NCBI GenBank assembly: GCA_010672585.1
Contig: JAAHGF010000001.1
Coordinates: 310,001-374,000 of the forward strand
Origin: Okeania sp. SIO1I7
GTDB lineage: Bacteria; Cyanobacteriota; Cyanobacteriia; Cyanobacteriales; Microcoleaceae
Length of the DNA: 64,000 nucleotides
Reading direction: 5' to 3'
Positions within the stretch are counted from its first letter, which is position 1, and each line of letters begins with the position of its first letter. Shown here in pieces: positions 20,684-54,102 of this stretch. The translations under genes were made by a program, and so were the position numbers. Below the pieces are notes generated by a model, which worked only from the letters and a program-made list of their open reading frames with translations, ran no database searches and had not been told where the DNA came from.

Positions 20684-20921
20684 CGAATAATTATAGCGGT
20701 TTTCATTAACATAGAATACAACTATTTCTGTAACTTATTAAACTTTAGGTATATCTATAATTTTTACTGTAGTCTACCTTTGTGAAAACCGCTATAAGGT
20801 TTAAAGCCTCTCCTTTAAAGGGATAAACAAGAAAAAATTTTCCTTTGAATCAATCCTCTTATTTTCAAGGAGAGGTAATAATTAATTATTAATTATTAAT
20901 GATTAATTATTAATTGTTGAA
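20684..20921 (+). mobile_element. IS605-like miniature element carrying a nested TA-flanked MITE
   Basis: It is preceded by TTAC (20680-20683), starts CGAATAATTA and ends GTTGAA. Without the insert at about 20693-20796 it reads CGAATAATTAAGGTTTAAAG, identical to the copy at 29404. It overlaps the 3' end of the next minus-strand gene and supplies that gene's last four residues and stop codon. Confidence 0.75.
20693..20796. mobile_element. TA-flanked MITE with AGCGGTTTTCA ends
   Basis: TAGCGGTTTTCA at the left and TGAAAACCGCTA at the right, inside TA dinucleotides. The empty target is seen in the sister element at 29404-29513 (AATTAAGG). A relative with ends TACAGCGCTTTTCA and TGAAAACCGCTGTA is at 48497-48600. 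Confidence 0.75.
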
Positions 20922-23152: not shown

Positions 23153-23847
23153 TTCAATAATTTATAATTTAGAATGCGCGAATTACCTCTCCTTGAAAAG
23201 AATGAGGGTAAGCATTCAGCTATTAGCAGTCAGCTATCAGCTACAAGACTCTCTACTTAAAGGACGGTGTTTAAATTAACAACTGACTTTAAGGACCAGG
23301 GAGGCAACTTTTGTAGTAAGACGGTTCATAAAATTTTTCCCCTAAACTAAAAGCAATAGCTGATAGCTGATGGCTGACGGCTGAATGCTTACGAATGAGG
23401 ATTGACGAACAGGAAAATTTTTATTTATTATCCCCTTAAAAGGGGAGGCTTTATAAACATCTTTATTAACATAAAACGTAGACATTAGAGCTGATTTATA
23501 AAGTAAATATTAAGGCGCTGAATTAGTTGCTCTACTTAGCTTTCAGGATTTTTGCCAAGTAAATTTATAATTGCTAAAAGCTAGGTAATATAAGACTTTT
23601 GGGGAAGTTTACAAATCAGCTCTTATAGATAAGTTATGTAACAGCATTTCAAAGATTTTTGCCAGAGAAAAAGTGTATTAAAAAGTAGATTTTTTTTGAG
23701 AAATTAAGTAGTTTTTCCTATCTACTACGATTCTTTCTCCCTTCTCCCCTACTCCCTACTCCCCTACTCCCCTAATCCACACAAGGTTTTCAGGAGTTCC
23801 TGATAAGGGAGAGCTTAAAAGGGGAGGCTTTAAATAACAATATTTCG
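23153..23847 (-). mobile_element. Reverse-oriented IS605-like element(s) with insertions
   Basis: Starts TTCAATAATTTATAA, the mirror of the family's right end, and finishes TATTTCG followed by GTAA at 23848, the mirror of TTAC. Two left-hairpin segments (CCCCTTAAAAGGGGAGGCTTT near 23433, CTTAAAAGGGGAGGCTTTA near 23812) suggest two copies or an internal duplication. A different element (23208-23392) is inserted in it. The rest of 22403-23152 holds degraded repeats and heptamers only. Confidence 0.55.
23208..23392. mobile_element. GTAAGCATT-family MITE, 185 bp, with 8-bp target duplication
   Basis: It begins GTAAGCATTCAGC and ends GCTGAATGCTTAC. Exact duplicates GAATGAGG flank it (23200-23207 and 23393-23400). 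Removing element and one duplicate rebuilds the right hairpin region of the host IS605-like element, proving the order of insertion. Confidence 0.88.
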
Positions 23848-23947
23848 GTAATAGTATTGATTGAACTTGGGACAAATTACCTAATTATGTCAGTTCTAAT
23901 TACCTCAGCTCTAATTAAAAGAAAAAGGATGTATTTCGGTTTCTTTC

Positions 23948-26656: not shown

Positions 26657-27068
26657 TCATGTTCCCCCTCCGGGGGAGCTACGCTAACGGATAATCAGTT
26701 ATAAATAAAATTTAAGGGCTGAAAGTACCAAATAAATACTGAAATTATCCATACTATTTTACCGAATAATTAATAATTAAATAATTCTGGTTTAAAGCCT
26801 CCCCTTTTAAGGGGAAAAAAGCGGTCGAGGGATGGCGAGGTCCCCTCGCCATATCCAATGGACCAAGAGAAGAAATAATATTTCCTTATATTCAATTCCG
26901 TAACGGTTTTAACCAGAGTTAATTATCAATTATTCATTATTCATTATCCATTAATGAACATATTTCATAAGCATTCCTCCTTTCTTCCCTCCTGAATCCT
27001 GGGGACTCACAACAGTTATTTATAAGTATTCAACCGTTAGCGTAGCTTCCCCCGGAGGGGGAACATAA
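26657..27068. mobile_element. IS630-type MITE with a palindrome in both ends
   Basis: Flanked by TA. The left end TCATGTTC and right end GAACATAA are inverted. Both ends carry the same 24-bp extra block (TTAGCGTAGCT...GGAGGGGG) between CCG and AACAT. The block is absent from relatives at 34921 (TCATGTTCGGTTGAATAC) and 43048-43077. Confidence 0.7.
26763..26958 (+). mobile_element. IS605-like miniature element, 196 bp
   Basis: TTAC lies at 26759-26762, immediately before CGAATAATTAATAATTAA; the right end is TTAATGAA. The left hairpin is CCCCTTTTAAGGGG. It contains the 50-bp palindromic unit (GCGGTCGAGGGATGGCGAGG) also found in the IS630 transposase at 2641-2693. Confidence 0.8.
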
Positions 27069-27385
27069 TATTAGATAAAAGCTTTACGTAAGCATTCAGC
27101 GGTCAGCTATCAGCTATTGCTTTTAGTGAGTAATAAAAGCCATGTTTAATTAAGCTAAAAAAAATATTACTAAAAGTAAGTTCCAAGGTCTATTTTAATT
27201 GAAATTTTCTCCTTAAACACAAGGTTTTATATCAAAGCTAATGTAAGCATTTCCTAATTGAGTCAGAATTAAATTCTACTATCAAAGCTTGCTTTAAAGT
27301 CTATATTAATTAAAATCTTATCATAAGAACTTAGAGCTGACAGCTAATAGCTATTTGCGCAGCATTCTGCAGGAAATGCTTACCC

Positions 27386-29378: not shown

Positions 29379-29745
29379 AAACTTTGATCCTACAGTAATT
29401 TACCGAATAATTAAGGTTTAAAGCCTCTCCTTTTAAGCAGAAACAAGAAAAAATTTTCCTTTGATTCAATCCTCTTCCTTTTAGGGAGAGAGAGGTAATT
29501 ATCAATTATTGAAGGAAGTTATTTAACATTTAAAAGGAGCAAAACTATTTGTGACATCTTTAAAATTAATTGGTATAAGAAAGAATAAAATAAGTTATAA
29601 ATCAAAATTTTAAATTTTAAATTTAAAAGTAATATTTGATCGTTTAAAAACTTTGATGCTACAGTAATTTACGGAAGTTATTTAACATTTAAAGGAGCAA
29701 AACTATTTGTGACATCTTTAAAATGAATTGGTATAAGAAAGAAGG
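29379..29745 (+). repeat. Direct duplication, one copy interrupted
   Basis: Copy 1 (29379-29600, holding the element above) and copy 2 (29646-29745) share the ACTTTGAT, AAAGGAGCAAAACTATTTGT and ATTGGTATAAGAAAGAA blocks. No coding sequence was found in 29044-30041. Confidence 0.75.
29404..29513 (+). mobile_element. IS605-like miniature element with a matching empty site nearby
   Basis: 110 bp, TTAC at 29400-29403, CGAATAATTAAGG start, TTATTGAA end. The flanks read AACTTTGATCCTACAGTAATTTAC and GGAAGTTATTTAACATTT as two separate blocks. The same two blocks are joined without the element at 29646-29690 (AGTAATTTACGGAAGTTATT). The paired blocks come from a local duplication, so the insertion boundaries are exact and no target bases were duplicated. 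Confidence 0.88.
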
Positions 29746-37172: not shown

Positions 37173-37474
37173 CGAATTATTAATAATTAATTATTAATAA
37201 TTAAATAATTCTGGTTTAAAGCCTCCCCTTTTAAGGGGAAAAAAGCGGTCGTTTGCTTTTGCTTCGCAAAACTGGCGTAACGCAACGCTGACGCGAAACG
37301 CGACAGCGGAACGGAGTTCTCTCTTCGGAGCTTCCCGTAGGGTGGGATGGCTCCGAAACCTGCGCCATATCCAATCGACCAAGAGAAGAAATAATATTTC
37401 TTTATATTCAATTCCGTAACGGTTTTAACCAGAGGTAATTATCAATTATCCATTATCAATTATCAATTAATGAA
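37173..37474 (+). mobile_element. IS605-like miniature element enlarged by palindromic insertions
   Basis: TTAC at 37169-37172, CGAATTATTAATAATTAA start, CAATTAATGAA end. Between GCGGTCG and CCATATCCAATCGACC it has gained about 110 bp of small palindromes (GCTTTTGCTTCGCAAAA, GGAGCTTCCCGTAGGGTGGG), which makes it the longest copy at 302 bp. Confidence 0.75.
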
Positions 37475-37708: not shown

Positions 37709-37922
37709 GTAAGCATTCAGCAGTCAGCATTCAGCAGTCAGCTATCAGTTATCAACTTATTATCTTAGAAGGAGAATTCAAAATTATGTTTGCGCAGCAT
37801 TCCGCAGAAAAAAAAAGGTAACAAGCTAACCTTAGTTAGTTATTAACGTTCAAAAGCTATTTGCGTAACATGACCTAGGAAATGCTCATAGCTGTTTGCG
37901 CAGCATTCCGCAGGAAATGCTG
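37709..37922. mobile_element. GTAAGCATT-family MITE, rearranged
   Basis: Starts GTAAGCATTCAGCAGTCAGC at 37709. Several copies of TTTGCGCAGCATTCCGCAG lie at about 37789-37810 and 37896-37920. No exact target duplication was found, so it may be two overlapping copies. Confidence 0.5.
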
Positions 37923-37984
37923 ATATATATTTACTAATTATCTGCTAATTCTGACTCTATCTAAATTAAAATTAATTATAAATT

Positions 37985-40799: not shown

Positions 40800-41558
40800 A
40801 TGATACAGAACCAAGCTTTACCTAAATTAATCACCTTTAATGAATTTCTTGACTGGAAGCCAGAAAATGGGCATTATGAATTATATAAGGGAATGATTGT
40901 AGAAATGCAGCCAAAAGGAAAACATGAAGAAATATCAGGATTTTTAGCAGTTGAATTGGCTGTTTTTTTTAGACAGAGTAAACTATCCTATTTTTTACTG
41001 AAACAAGCATTAATAAAAGTACCCAATGAAAATAGTGGTTATTTACCGAAAAATTGTGGTTTAAAGCCTCCCCTTTTAAGGGGATAATAAATAAAAATTT
41101 TCATGATTAGTCAATCCTCTTCTTTTCAAGGAGAGGTAATTATTAATTATTAATTATTCATTATTCATTATTGAACTGATGTATTAGTTGTAGATAGAAA
41201 TGCTCTTAAAGACGAACCTTTGTGGGAAAAATCTTTAACCCTAACAAAAGGAGAATCAATTACCTTGGTAATAGAAATTTTCAGTAGTAATTGGCGAGAT
41301 GATTATTTAACTAAATTAAAAGATTACGTTCGCGTAGCGTCTCGAAGAGAGGAAATTGGCATTAATGAATATTGGATTGTCGATTAATTAGGGATAGGTG
41401 GTTATCGTTATATTGGTAATCCAAAACAACCAAATATTTCTATTTATCAGCTTATTGATGATGAATATCAAGTTCAATGTTTTAGAGGTAATGAATCAAT
41501 TAAATCCACTACTTTTCCTGGATTAAATTTAACTGCTAACCAAATATTTCAAGGTTGA
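40800..41558 (+). pseudogene. Uma2-family (DUF820) endonuclease gene with three lesions
   Basis: The N-terminal part (ITFNEFLDWKPENGHYELYK, HEEISGFLAVELAVFFRQS) runs to NENSGYL. The frame resumes after 41175 as DVLVVDRNALKDEPLWEKSL, then ITLVIEIFSSNWRDDYLTKL with the PD-(D/E)XK-like core. Lesion 1 is an IS605-like element at 41047-41175. Lesion 2 is a 24-bp palindrome at about 41328-41351, adding VRVASRRE in frame. Lesion 3 is a TAA at 41385-41387 in EYWIVD(stop)LGIGGYR. Without these the protein would be about 200 residues, normal for the family. Confidence 0.85.
41047..41175 (+). mobile_element. IS605-like miniature element interrupting Uma2
   Basis: TTAC at 41043-41046. Left hairpin TCCCCTTTTAAGGGGA at 41069-41084, right hairpin CCTCTTCTTTTCAAGGAGAGG-like at about 41116-41136, end TATTGAA. 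Deleting exactly these 129 bp joins TATTTAC to CTGATGTA and restores the Uma2 reading (Y-L-P-D-V), so no target bases were duplicated. Confidence 0.9.
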
Positions 41559-52781: not shown

Positions 52782-54102
52782 ATGACTTTCAAAATTATTA
52801 GTTTAGATGACGGTGGAATTCGTGGAGTAATTGCAGCACGAATTCTGATAGAAATTGAAAAAAAATTAAAGAACAAAAAGGTAAGTCTTTACATGAATAC
52901 TTTGACTTAGTAGCTGGTACTTCCACTGGCTCAATTATTGCAGCGCTAATTGCTACAGGAACAGAAAGCACTAATATTCTCAAGCTATATCAGGAAGAAG
53001 GAATCAATATTTTTCCATACCAAAGTCGCTTGTCGCCCAAAAGATTACCCTTAATTTTGAAATATGGAATTTCTGCTCCTAAGTTTTCCAGTGAAGGCTT
53101 AATTAAAGTCTTGAAAAAATACCTTTTACGACAAGATAGAACGGCAATTATACTTCAATAAATTAGTGAAATAAACTTATTAATTGTGTCTTACCGAATA
53201 ATTAATAATTAATAATTAATAATTAAATAATTCTGGTTTAAAGCCTCCCCTTTTAAAGGGAAAAAAAGCGGTCGTTAGCGCAGCGCACCCGTTGGGTGGG
53301 ATGGCGAGGAAACCTCGCCATATCCAATCGACCAAGAAAAGAAAATATTCCTTATATTCAATCCTCTCGGTTTTAACCAGAGGTAATTATCAATTATCAA
53401 TTATCCATTATCCATTAATGAAAATATGTTTTTGGAATCTCCGACTATTTTTGTAAATTATCATCCATAAATACCTAAACAAACCATTTGGTATGACAAT
53501 CTCCCTCTGTGGGAAATTTGTGCTAGTTCTTCATCAGCTCCTACTTATTTTCCAGCTTATGAATTAAAAAATGGAGACTTGATCTACCACATATAGATGG
53601 AGGAATAGCAGCAAATAATCCCACATTAGCAGCAATAAGCTATGCAATTAAACTAGGTCATAAACTAGAAGATATTTCGATAATTTCTATTGGCACAGGT
53701 GAAACTATCCAGCTATATAGTTATAAGCAAATAGTAGAATGGGGACTAGCTGAATGGGCAATCAAACTAATTAATATATTGATGAATTCTCAGTCTTCAG
53801 CTAATAACCTTGTAGCAGAACAAATTATGTCTACAAAGAATCCTGAAGGTTACTTACGTTTACAGTTTGAATTAAATAATATTTTTCAGCAAGGAACAAA
53901 TGAGAAAAAAGTAATTAACTCTTATATAAATGAAAAAGTAAGTGAAGCAATAGATGATGCTAGAGAACCTCAGATTAATCAACTAATCAGAGTTACAGAA
54001 GCATTTATTGATCAAGGTAAAGTTGCTTATGTAGACTTAGAAAATCAAATAAATTATCCCTTAGTTAAAGAAGCGATCGCCCGTTTTATTAATCTTAATT
54101 AG
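52782..54102 (+). pseudogene. Patatin-like phospholipase pseudogene
   Basis: The start (MTFKIISLDDGGIRGVIAA) has the oxyanion loop with DDGGIRG in place of DGGGIRG. A frameshift near 52882 separates it from FDLVAGTSTGSIIAALIATG, which holds the nucleophile serine. A stop follows RTAIILQ at about 53160. An IS605-like element occupies 53195-53422. Beyond it the frame continues LPLWEICASSSSAPTYFPAY, the catalytic Asp motif HIDGGIAANNPTLAAI and the C-terminus to 54102, with another stop near 53472. Patatins hydrolyse membrane lipids; this copy is dead. It and its insert separate potD from potA. Confidence 0.85.
53195..53422 (+). mobile_element. IS605-like miniature element inside the patatin gene
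   Basis: TTAC at 53191-53194, CGAATAATTAATAATTAA start, CATTAATGAA end; CCCCTTTTAAAGGG left hairpin and CCTCTCGGTTTTAACCAGAGG-like right hairpin. Removing it joins GTGTCTTAC to AATATGTTT and restores LLIVSYNMFLESPTIFVNY in one frame, which fits the patatin fold. It carries the GGCGAGG...CCTCGCC palindromic unit. Confidence 0.9.

Follow-up and report, generated by a model that had tools for sequence, protein, structure and literature searches.

Among the closest described systems is IS608 of Helicobacter pylori. In this element the guides AAAG and GAAT, located 5′ of the hairpins, recognize TTAC and TCAA, respectively, as cleavage words, and the pairing includes A16:T-3 and A17:T-4 (PMC5934647); retargeting of IS608 by a change of guide is known as an engineering procedure (PMC5934647 and work cited there). 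The PATEs of Haloquadratum walsbyi are too short to encode a transposase and do not need terminal inverted repeats. They contain near-terminal palindromes like those of IS605-type elements, cause no target duplication, and show strain-specific insertions despite broken IS200-type genes (PMC3119063). PATEs have also been seen in some cyanobacteria (PMC4853749), and cyanobacterial MITEs have been reported (PMC3542288, PMC11448079).

The DNA analysed here is a window of 64,000 nucleotides (contig C1, positions 310001-374000) of an Okeania genome of 9.48 Mb in 109 contigs. It holds six gene-less copies of a miniature element, 110-302 bp in length (Table 1). In agreement with the first-pass annotation, TTAC is present directly before, and TGAA at the end of, all six copies. 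TTAC and the left end of a seventh copy were detected on the minus strand near 23.8 kb, where a right end was looked for and none was found. The right hairpin that the annotation had quoted, CTCTT..AAGGAGAG, is not universal, the copies at 26763, 37173 and 53195 having a CGGTTTTAACC core instead. We consider it highly probable (about 0.85) that these miniatures represent PATE-like, non-autonomous relatives of IS200/IS605 elements of the IS608 type. This reading is supported by the ends, the empty sites, the co-change of guides and cleavage words, and an element of the same genus, all presented below; the single-strand transposition already proposed in the first pass would follow by analogy with IS608. 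Points that weigh against the reading are that no matching transposase was found in the window genome, that some ends break the pairing rule, that the left hairpins are no more stable than shuffles, that no strand bias was seen, and that the right linkers exceed those of the coding elements in length.

Table 1. Positions of the miniature elements and of their parts in the window.
Feature	Position	Strand	Remarks
Miniature element	20684..20921	+	238 bp; unrelated sequence within left part
Seventh copy, TTAC and left end	23780..23855 (approximate limits)	-	
Miniature element	26763..26958	+	196 bp; in relatives, two or three units in tandem
Miniature element	29404..29513	+	110 bp, shortest of the window
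Miniature element	37173..37474	+	302 bp; exact empty site in G414, G413
Miniature element	41047..41175	+	129 bp; inserted in Uma2-family frame; exact empty site in G414, G416
Target / left cleavage word TTAC, 41047 copy	41043..41046	+	flank, not duplicated
Left guide AAAG, 41047 copy	41063..41066	+	putative; from sequence, pairing grammar (PMC5934647) and covariation
Left subterminal hairpin region, 41047 copy	41067..41084	+	stem TCCCCT/AGGGGA; folded
Right guide CAAT, 41047 copy	41112..41115	+	putative; from sequence; CAAT in 73/85 right ends found
Right subterminal hairpin CCTCTTCTTTTCAAGGAGAGG, 41047 copy	41116..41136	+	folded, z -3.26 (68-nt right end)
Right linker, 41047 copy	41137..41171	+	35 nt, heptamer repeats
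Right cleavage word TGAA, 41047 copy	41172..41175	+	boundary from empty site
Miniature element	53195..53422	+	228 bp; exact empty site in G414, G415, G413
Left guide AAAG, 53195 copy	53240..53243	+	
Right guide CAAT, 53195 copy	53359..53362	+	
Right cleavage word TGAA, 53195 copy	53419..53422	+	

Like IS608, the miniatures insert 3′ of TTAC without duplicating it and have AAAG located 5′ of the left hairpin, and the right words TCAA/GAAT of IS608 are those of the coding relatives described below (PMC5934647). They differ from IS608 in the lack of genes, in the right words TGAA/CAAT, in a right linker of heptamers that is mostly 35 nt long, and in the use of TGAC and TCAC targets as well. With the PATEs of H. 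walsbyi they share size, lack of transposase, palindromes, absence of duplication and strain-specific insertion; the accessible part of that report mentions neither guide-word rewriting nor heptamer linkers, and calls the terminal 20-50 bp heterogeneous (PMC3119063). Their small size, the lack of a transposase gene and a left end common to IS605-type elements identify the miniatures as PATEs, a kind of element that is already known. New are the natural rewriting of guide and target and the 7-nt linkers; in the largely open-access literature searched, we found no report of either the co-change of guide and word in miniatures or such linkers. REP/REPIN sequences, too, are short, palindromic and non-autonomous, and depend on a Y1 protein (TnpAREP) for their movement; they probably differ from the miniatures in words and size. 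Cyanobacterial TnpB-only (IS1341-type) elements have the same left end as the miniatures, TTACCGAAAAATTGGGTTTAAAGCC, and differ from them in carrying tnpB or its remnants and in the right end TCAA/GAAT. This left end, at up to 2 mismatches, is present in 31/291 genomes of the class (reversed controls, 0).

The elements are abundant. The window contains 10 matches to TTTAAAGCCTC with at most 1 mismatch, compared with a shuffle mean of 2.9, and 0/100 shuffles reached 10. For the core GGTTTAAAGCCTC, 307 exact matches (163 + 144) were counted in the whole genome, and for the reversed pattern only 1. Among the matches listed, the GTDB genomes with the core belong to Okeania, Trichodesmium, Hydrocoleum and other Microcoleaceae, and include single records of Crocosphaera, Pleurocapsales and Chamaesiphon. 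The distribution of the miniature form was assessed on 80 named loci fetched by TTACCGAA..GGTTTAAAGCCTC. CAAT..TGAA right ends were present in 39/65 loci of Okeania, 2/3 of Hydrocoleum and 3/4 of Microcoleaceae MO_207, and in 0/10 of Trichodesmium (1 GAAT..TCAA, 9 neither). No signal of a lagging-strand bias was seen: neighbouring copies have the same orientation in 43/93 pairs (46.1 expected), and local GC skew, which is weak in the window genome, does not differ with copy orientation.

From left to right, the organization is as follows: flanking TTAC, a left linker, GGTTT, the guide AAAG, a left hairpin of the CCTCCCCTTTTAAGGGG kind, a middle region, the guide CAAT, a hairpin such as CCTCTTCTTTTCAAGGAGAGG, a heptamer array and TGAA. 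The left linker is CGAATAATTAA or CGAAAAATTGT (10-11 nt) in 74 of the 101 copies called; longer linkers of 26, 33, 40 or 47 nt are present in 24, among them the 53195 copy with 40 nt of heptamers, and three have other lengths. The right linker, measured from the end of the hairpin to the first TGAA, is an exact multiple of 7 nt in 60/69 cases and most commonly 35 nt (35/69), with a self-identity of 0.85 at lag 7 versus 0.14-0.52 at lags 2-6 and 8-12. Downstream of TGAA the information falls to 0.05-0.43 bits per base. Folding of two copies showed that subterminal hairpins form at both ends; at the right end their stability exceeds that of shuffles (z -3.26 and -3.40), and at the left end it does not (z -0.77 for 53 nt of the 41047 copy, and -1.70). 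AGCGGTC is found in the middle of 32/122 copies and a CGACCAAGAG block in 25/122.

Many copies, 37173-37474 and 53195-53422 among them, have nested small hairpins, AGCGGTCG...CGACCAAGAG, in their middles, and these can contain inserts, for instance GTTAGCGCAGC...GGGTGGGATGGC; presumably they correspond to the small dispersed repeats known from cyanobacteria. Another repeat, GGGTTTGCTGA...TCAGCAAACCC (L287 11819-12113, L288 10040-10335; G414), is dispersed as well, measures ∼290 bp and is located in TAATTA sites; relatives lack it at the corresponding position. Heptamer arrays are often interrupted by this repeat, which was also found within right linkers of family members such as L046 and L061. 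The presence of a further dispersed repeat, GTAAGCATTCAGC...GCTGAATGCTTAC (window 27087-27245 and 37709-37926; L288 7031-7247; L295 12716-12962), differs among same-genus genomes.

For three of the six window copies (41047, 53195 and 37173) exact orthologous empty sites are present in genomes of the same genus. All three sites are empty to the base in the genomes given in Table 1, and at the empty 37173 sites the target reads TTGC and TGAC. Three copies in G416, all inserted after TTAC, gave equivalent results: the site of L290 is empty in G000 and G414, that of L291 in G000, G414 and G413, and that of L292 in G415. No target duplication was observed at any exact empty site of either set, as the first-pass annotation had claimed. 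Boundaries and empty sites are directly visible in the sequences. The flanks of the 53195 copy are up to 99.7% identical in relatives that lack it, and the absence of copies from relatives with near-identical flanks indicates recent movement. For 20684 and 29404, the relatives examined gave no clean empty site. The 20684 site in G416 is occupied by a rearranged copy, and the 26763 site is occupied in G415 and G416. At this latter site tandem growth was observed, with two or three miniature units (G416, L290 18448-19061; G415, L297) whose inner left ends are cut down to ATAAATAATTCT or similar.

The protein frames and the nearby empty site named in the first pass were also followed up. In G414 a Uma2 frame of 157 aa (E 3.8e-21) runs through the 41047 site, as predicted. 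The patatin frame claimed for 53195 holds for G413, where a 364-aa Patatin frame (E 3e-26) spans the site, and does not hold for G414, in which the frames are split, or for G415, for which none of at least 60 aa is listed. The nearby empty site proposed for 29404 does exist (AGTAATTTACGGAAG at 29663-29677, 150 bases beyond the copy, 0 expected); it is weaker than an orthologous empty site because it is apparently part of a local duplication.

Left ends in the genome of the window were collected through their core or guide, irrespective of the target. The 122 distinct copies with a guide NAAG comprise 93 with a callable TNAC target, 8 with another word and 21 with none. Among the 93 callable copies, 82 have a second target base that is complementary to the first guide base; in 20,000 shuffles the mean was 57.7 and the maximum 73. 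The complementary pairs are TTAC/AAAG (67), TGAC/CAAG (10) and TCAC/GAAG (5). The claim that the family follows TTAC is borne out for 67/76 AAAG-guide copies with a callable left boundary (16 more are not callable), and part of the genome's copies have TGAC or TCAC in place of TTAC. A guide-blind count, limited to short linkers, gave one of the same three pairs in 46/60 cases. The 14 rule-breakers were TTAC/TGCG (4), TTAC/CAAG (3), TGAC/GAAG (2), TGAC/AAAG (2), TTAC/AAAT (2) and TGAC/ATAA (1). In L291 and L292, both with exact empty sites, GGGTATG(C/T)GCC replaces the AAAG core.

The right end shows a corresponding change. Among the elements that are coding or derived from coding ones, 22 of 23 distinct sequences have the right words GAAT/TCAA. 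For the miniatures, a right end was found for 85 of the 122 copies, and 60 of these have CAAT/TGAA; CAAT without TGAA in reach accounts for 13 and the remaining 12 lack CAAT. Compared with the coding elements, both word base 2 (C to G) and guide base 1 (G to C) have changed in the miniatures. Co-change of guide and word is visible in the sequences at both ends; at the right end, TGAA/CAAT would have arisen from TCAA/GAAT by a compensated double change. L290 is a firm exception, combining the guide CAAT with the end TCAA, a mismatch at the variable pair. Two adjoining short gene-less derivatives with ends GAAT..TCAA were observed in the genome of the window (L047; C15:278155 and 278423, minus strand). 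They are probably core-deleted TnpB elements.

A Y1 TnpA with matching ends, which the first-pass annotation had suggested looking for, was found in the same genus (L336 in G415, L335 in G413) and on a Chroococcidiopsis plasmid (L283). The left end of L336 and L335 consists of TTAC followed by C(A/G)GAAAATTGGGTTT-AAAG-CCTCCCCC, and their products match Pfam Y1_Tnp (1.9e-35 and 3.9e-37, respectively). The G415 element is of the IS605 type, having open frames for tnpA (135 aa) and tnpB (400 aa) and the ends TTAC/AAAG at the left and GAAT...TCAA at the right; the tnpA in G413 has the same left end. On the basis of its sequence, the G415 element thus combines the left end of the miniatures with both tnpA and tnpB. 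The C. thermalis plasmid element, to which a search of plasmids with the left end led, also contains tnpA (Y1_Tnp, 2.2e-36) and tnpB, and has the words TTAT/AAAA at its left and TCAA/GAAT at its right end. In coding elements the right linker is 6-7 nt, versus mostly 35 nt in the miniatures. A TnpA match at 1e-20 is present in 86/291 class genomes.

The TnpA-bearing set comprises 36 loci (L283 itself, or TnpA at least 47% identical to it), whose left-end words were read by eye and were not callable in four. Guide and target pair at both variable positions in 30 of the 32 left ends and at each single position in 31/32, shuffles reaching at most 26 and 27. The classes are TGAC/CAAG (15), TTAT/AAAA (10) and TTAC/AAAG (4), plus TGGC/CAAG, the odd base of which lies outside the two tested positions; TGAC/TAAG and TGAC/CAAT break the rule. 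On the TnpA tree, for which the bootstrap is not settled, the three main classes are interspersed, with 9 changes over all labels, and the starred branches force at least 3 changes for TGAC. Both TTAT and TGAC are used among TnpA proteins that share 81-83% identity with the plasmid protein (L305, L306, L309).

In the window genome, none of 10 Y1 places has a matching left end adjoining it. Its closest TnpA proteins are 41-44% identical and have other ends, and a TTAT..AAAA left end is located ∼1.3 kb from the Y1 place L005. The left end of the miniatures is also present in this genome on elements with tnpB of several kinds or tnpB remnants. On the minus strand at C18:38319 (L064), the left-end core GGTTTAAAGCCTCCCC is located upstream of a frame that, by eye, resembles an IS607-type serine-recombinase TnpA, together with part of a tnpB-like frame. 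Since no matching transposase was found in the window genome, we infer the mover of the miniatures, which would be a TnpA of the G415/G413 kind. The combination of recent movement with the lack of a matching transposase could also be explained by a stand-alone or domesticated Y1 protein, comparable to TnpAREP and its REP sequences, acting in place of a cognate IS transposase. The Y1 frames of L005 (134 aa), L006 (255 aa) and L007 (210 aa), the last two of which may be RAYT-like, have no tnpB in their loci and are in line with such a mover. We nevertheless consider it unlikely: a cognate TnpA with the same left end exists in G413 and G415, and loss or invasion of an autonomous element explains the gap in the window genome equally well.

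Heptamers of the type TAACTGA define a sub-family. TAACTGATAACTGA occurs 597 times in the window genome versus 2 times for the reversed pattern, and TAACTGA triplets are present in 12/291 class genomes. A right end of this type was observed on the minus strand of the window at ∼31.86 kb (GAGGTACTGATAATTGATAACTGAAATGAC). The word before the right hairpin varies (CAAG, CTTG, CAAA or CAAT), with TGAC at the end. We collected 70 right ends (44 from the window genome, the rest from other loci), and the left end was callable in 27; the left/right words are TGAC/TGAC in 12 of these, TTAC/TGAC in 6, TTAC/TTAC in 3 and others in 6. Judged by these words, the sub-family resembles elements with TGAC as right word.

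The heptamer arrays might instead be independent regulatory repeats, in or beside which the elements happen to sit; translational regulation has been proposed for the TAACTGA repeats of Beggiatoaceae (PMC4679880). In line with this, a link to cyanobacterial TAACTGA arrays at large had to be rejected on the data available: 0/22 arrays from 11 other genomes end in AATGAC, and only one (L355) has a similar core upstream. The sub-family context does not extend to other genomes, and the regulatory idea is therefore neither confirmed nor replaced outside this lineage (PMC4679880). Within the window genome, however, AATGAC follows 29 of 48 distinct TAACTGA arrays and AATTAC follows 4, and many have a hairpin directly before the array. 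In addition, the AT-type linkers are in register between right hairpin and TGAA, and the empty sites of three copies, all of the AT type, show that miniature and array together entered an array-free site. We regard independent arrays as improbable.

The 12/27 TAACTGA elements with TGAC at both ends look like the product of a 4-bp duplication. This, together with the short, gene-less and high-copy nature of the elements and their partly complementary AT-rich ends, would fit MITEs mobilized by a DDE transposase whose target is AT-rich. This explanation is, however, largely refuted by the exact empty sites, which contain TTAC once and no duplication. Moreover, left TTAC is combined with right TGAC in six TAACTGA elements and with TTAC in three, indicating that the right word was not copied from the target, and guide and target words co-vary at a distance. 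Nor did a DDE insertion sequence with these ends match in a comparison made without ISfinder, and we judge a DDE origin very improbable. Finally, the variable unit number of the arrays and the tandem units at 26763 might point to a spread through heptamer recombination or slippage, or to conserved RNA elements or terminators. We judge this very improbable, and as the main route it is already refuted by the empty sites. Copies are present or absent at exact single sites inside frames, the window is without any Rfam family at the gathering threshold, and guide-target co-change would not be expected.

By analogy with IS608, the PATE-like miniatures would move as single-stranded DNA in the following way. 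A Y1 HUH transposase supplied in trans would bind both subterminal hairpins, and the tetranucleotide guide directly 5′ of each hairpin would pair with a cleavage word: AAAG at the left with TTAC in the flank, and CAAT at the right with the terminal TGAA of the element itself. Excision as a circle would follow, with the donor sealed without a scar, after which the left guide would pair with a new TTAC and the element would enter 3′ of it without duplication.

A broader proposal, which we put forward tentatively and hold to be doubtful, is that the family represents a natural, evolving form of DNA-guided transposition. One family of ends would keep rewriting guide and cleavage word at either end, so that closely related transposases would serve TTAC, TGAC, TCAC and TTAT, and the miniatures would use a private right word, TGAA/CAAT, as opposed to TCAA/GAAT of the coding elements. 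The 7-nt linkers would either result from the transposase reaction or be required for it and, if so, these elements would be one source of the heptamer arrays in cyanobacterial genomes. The miniatures are a case of recent insertion by elements whose transposase gene was not found in the host genome. These genomes appear to have retargeted their guides many times, at both ends. They thereby offer a natural data set for learning which guide/word pairs are functional, at what positions and in combination with which transposase, and they suggest an origin of one class of heptamer arrays that can be tested.
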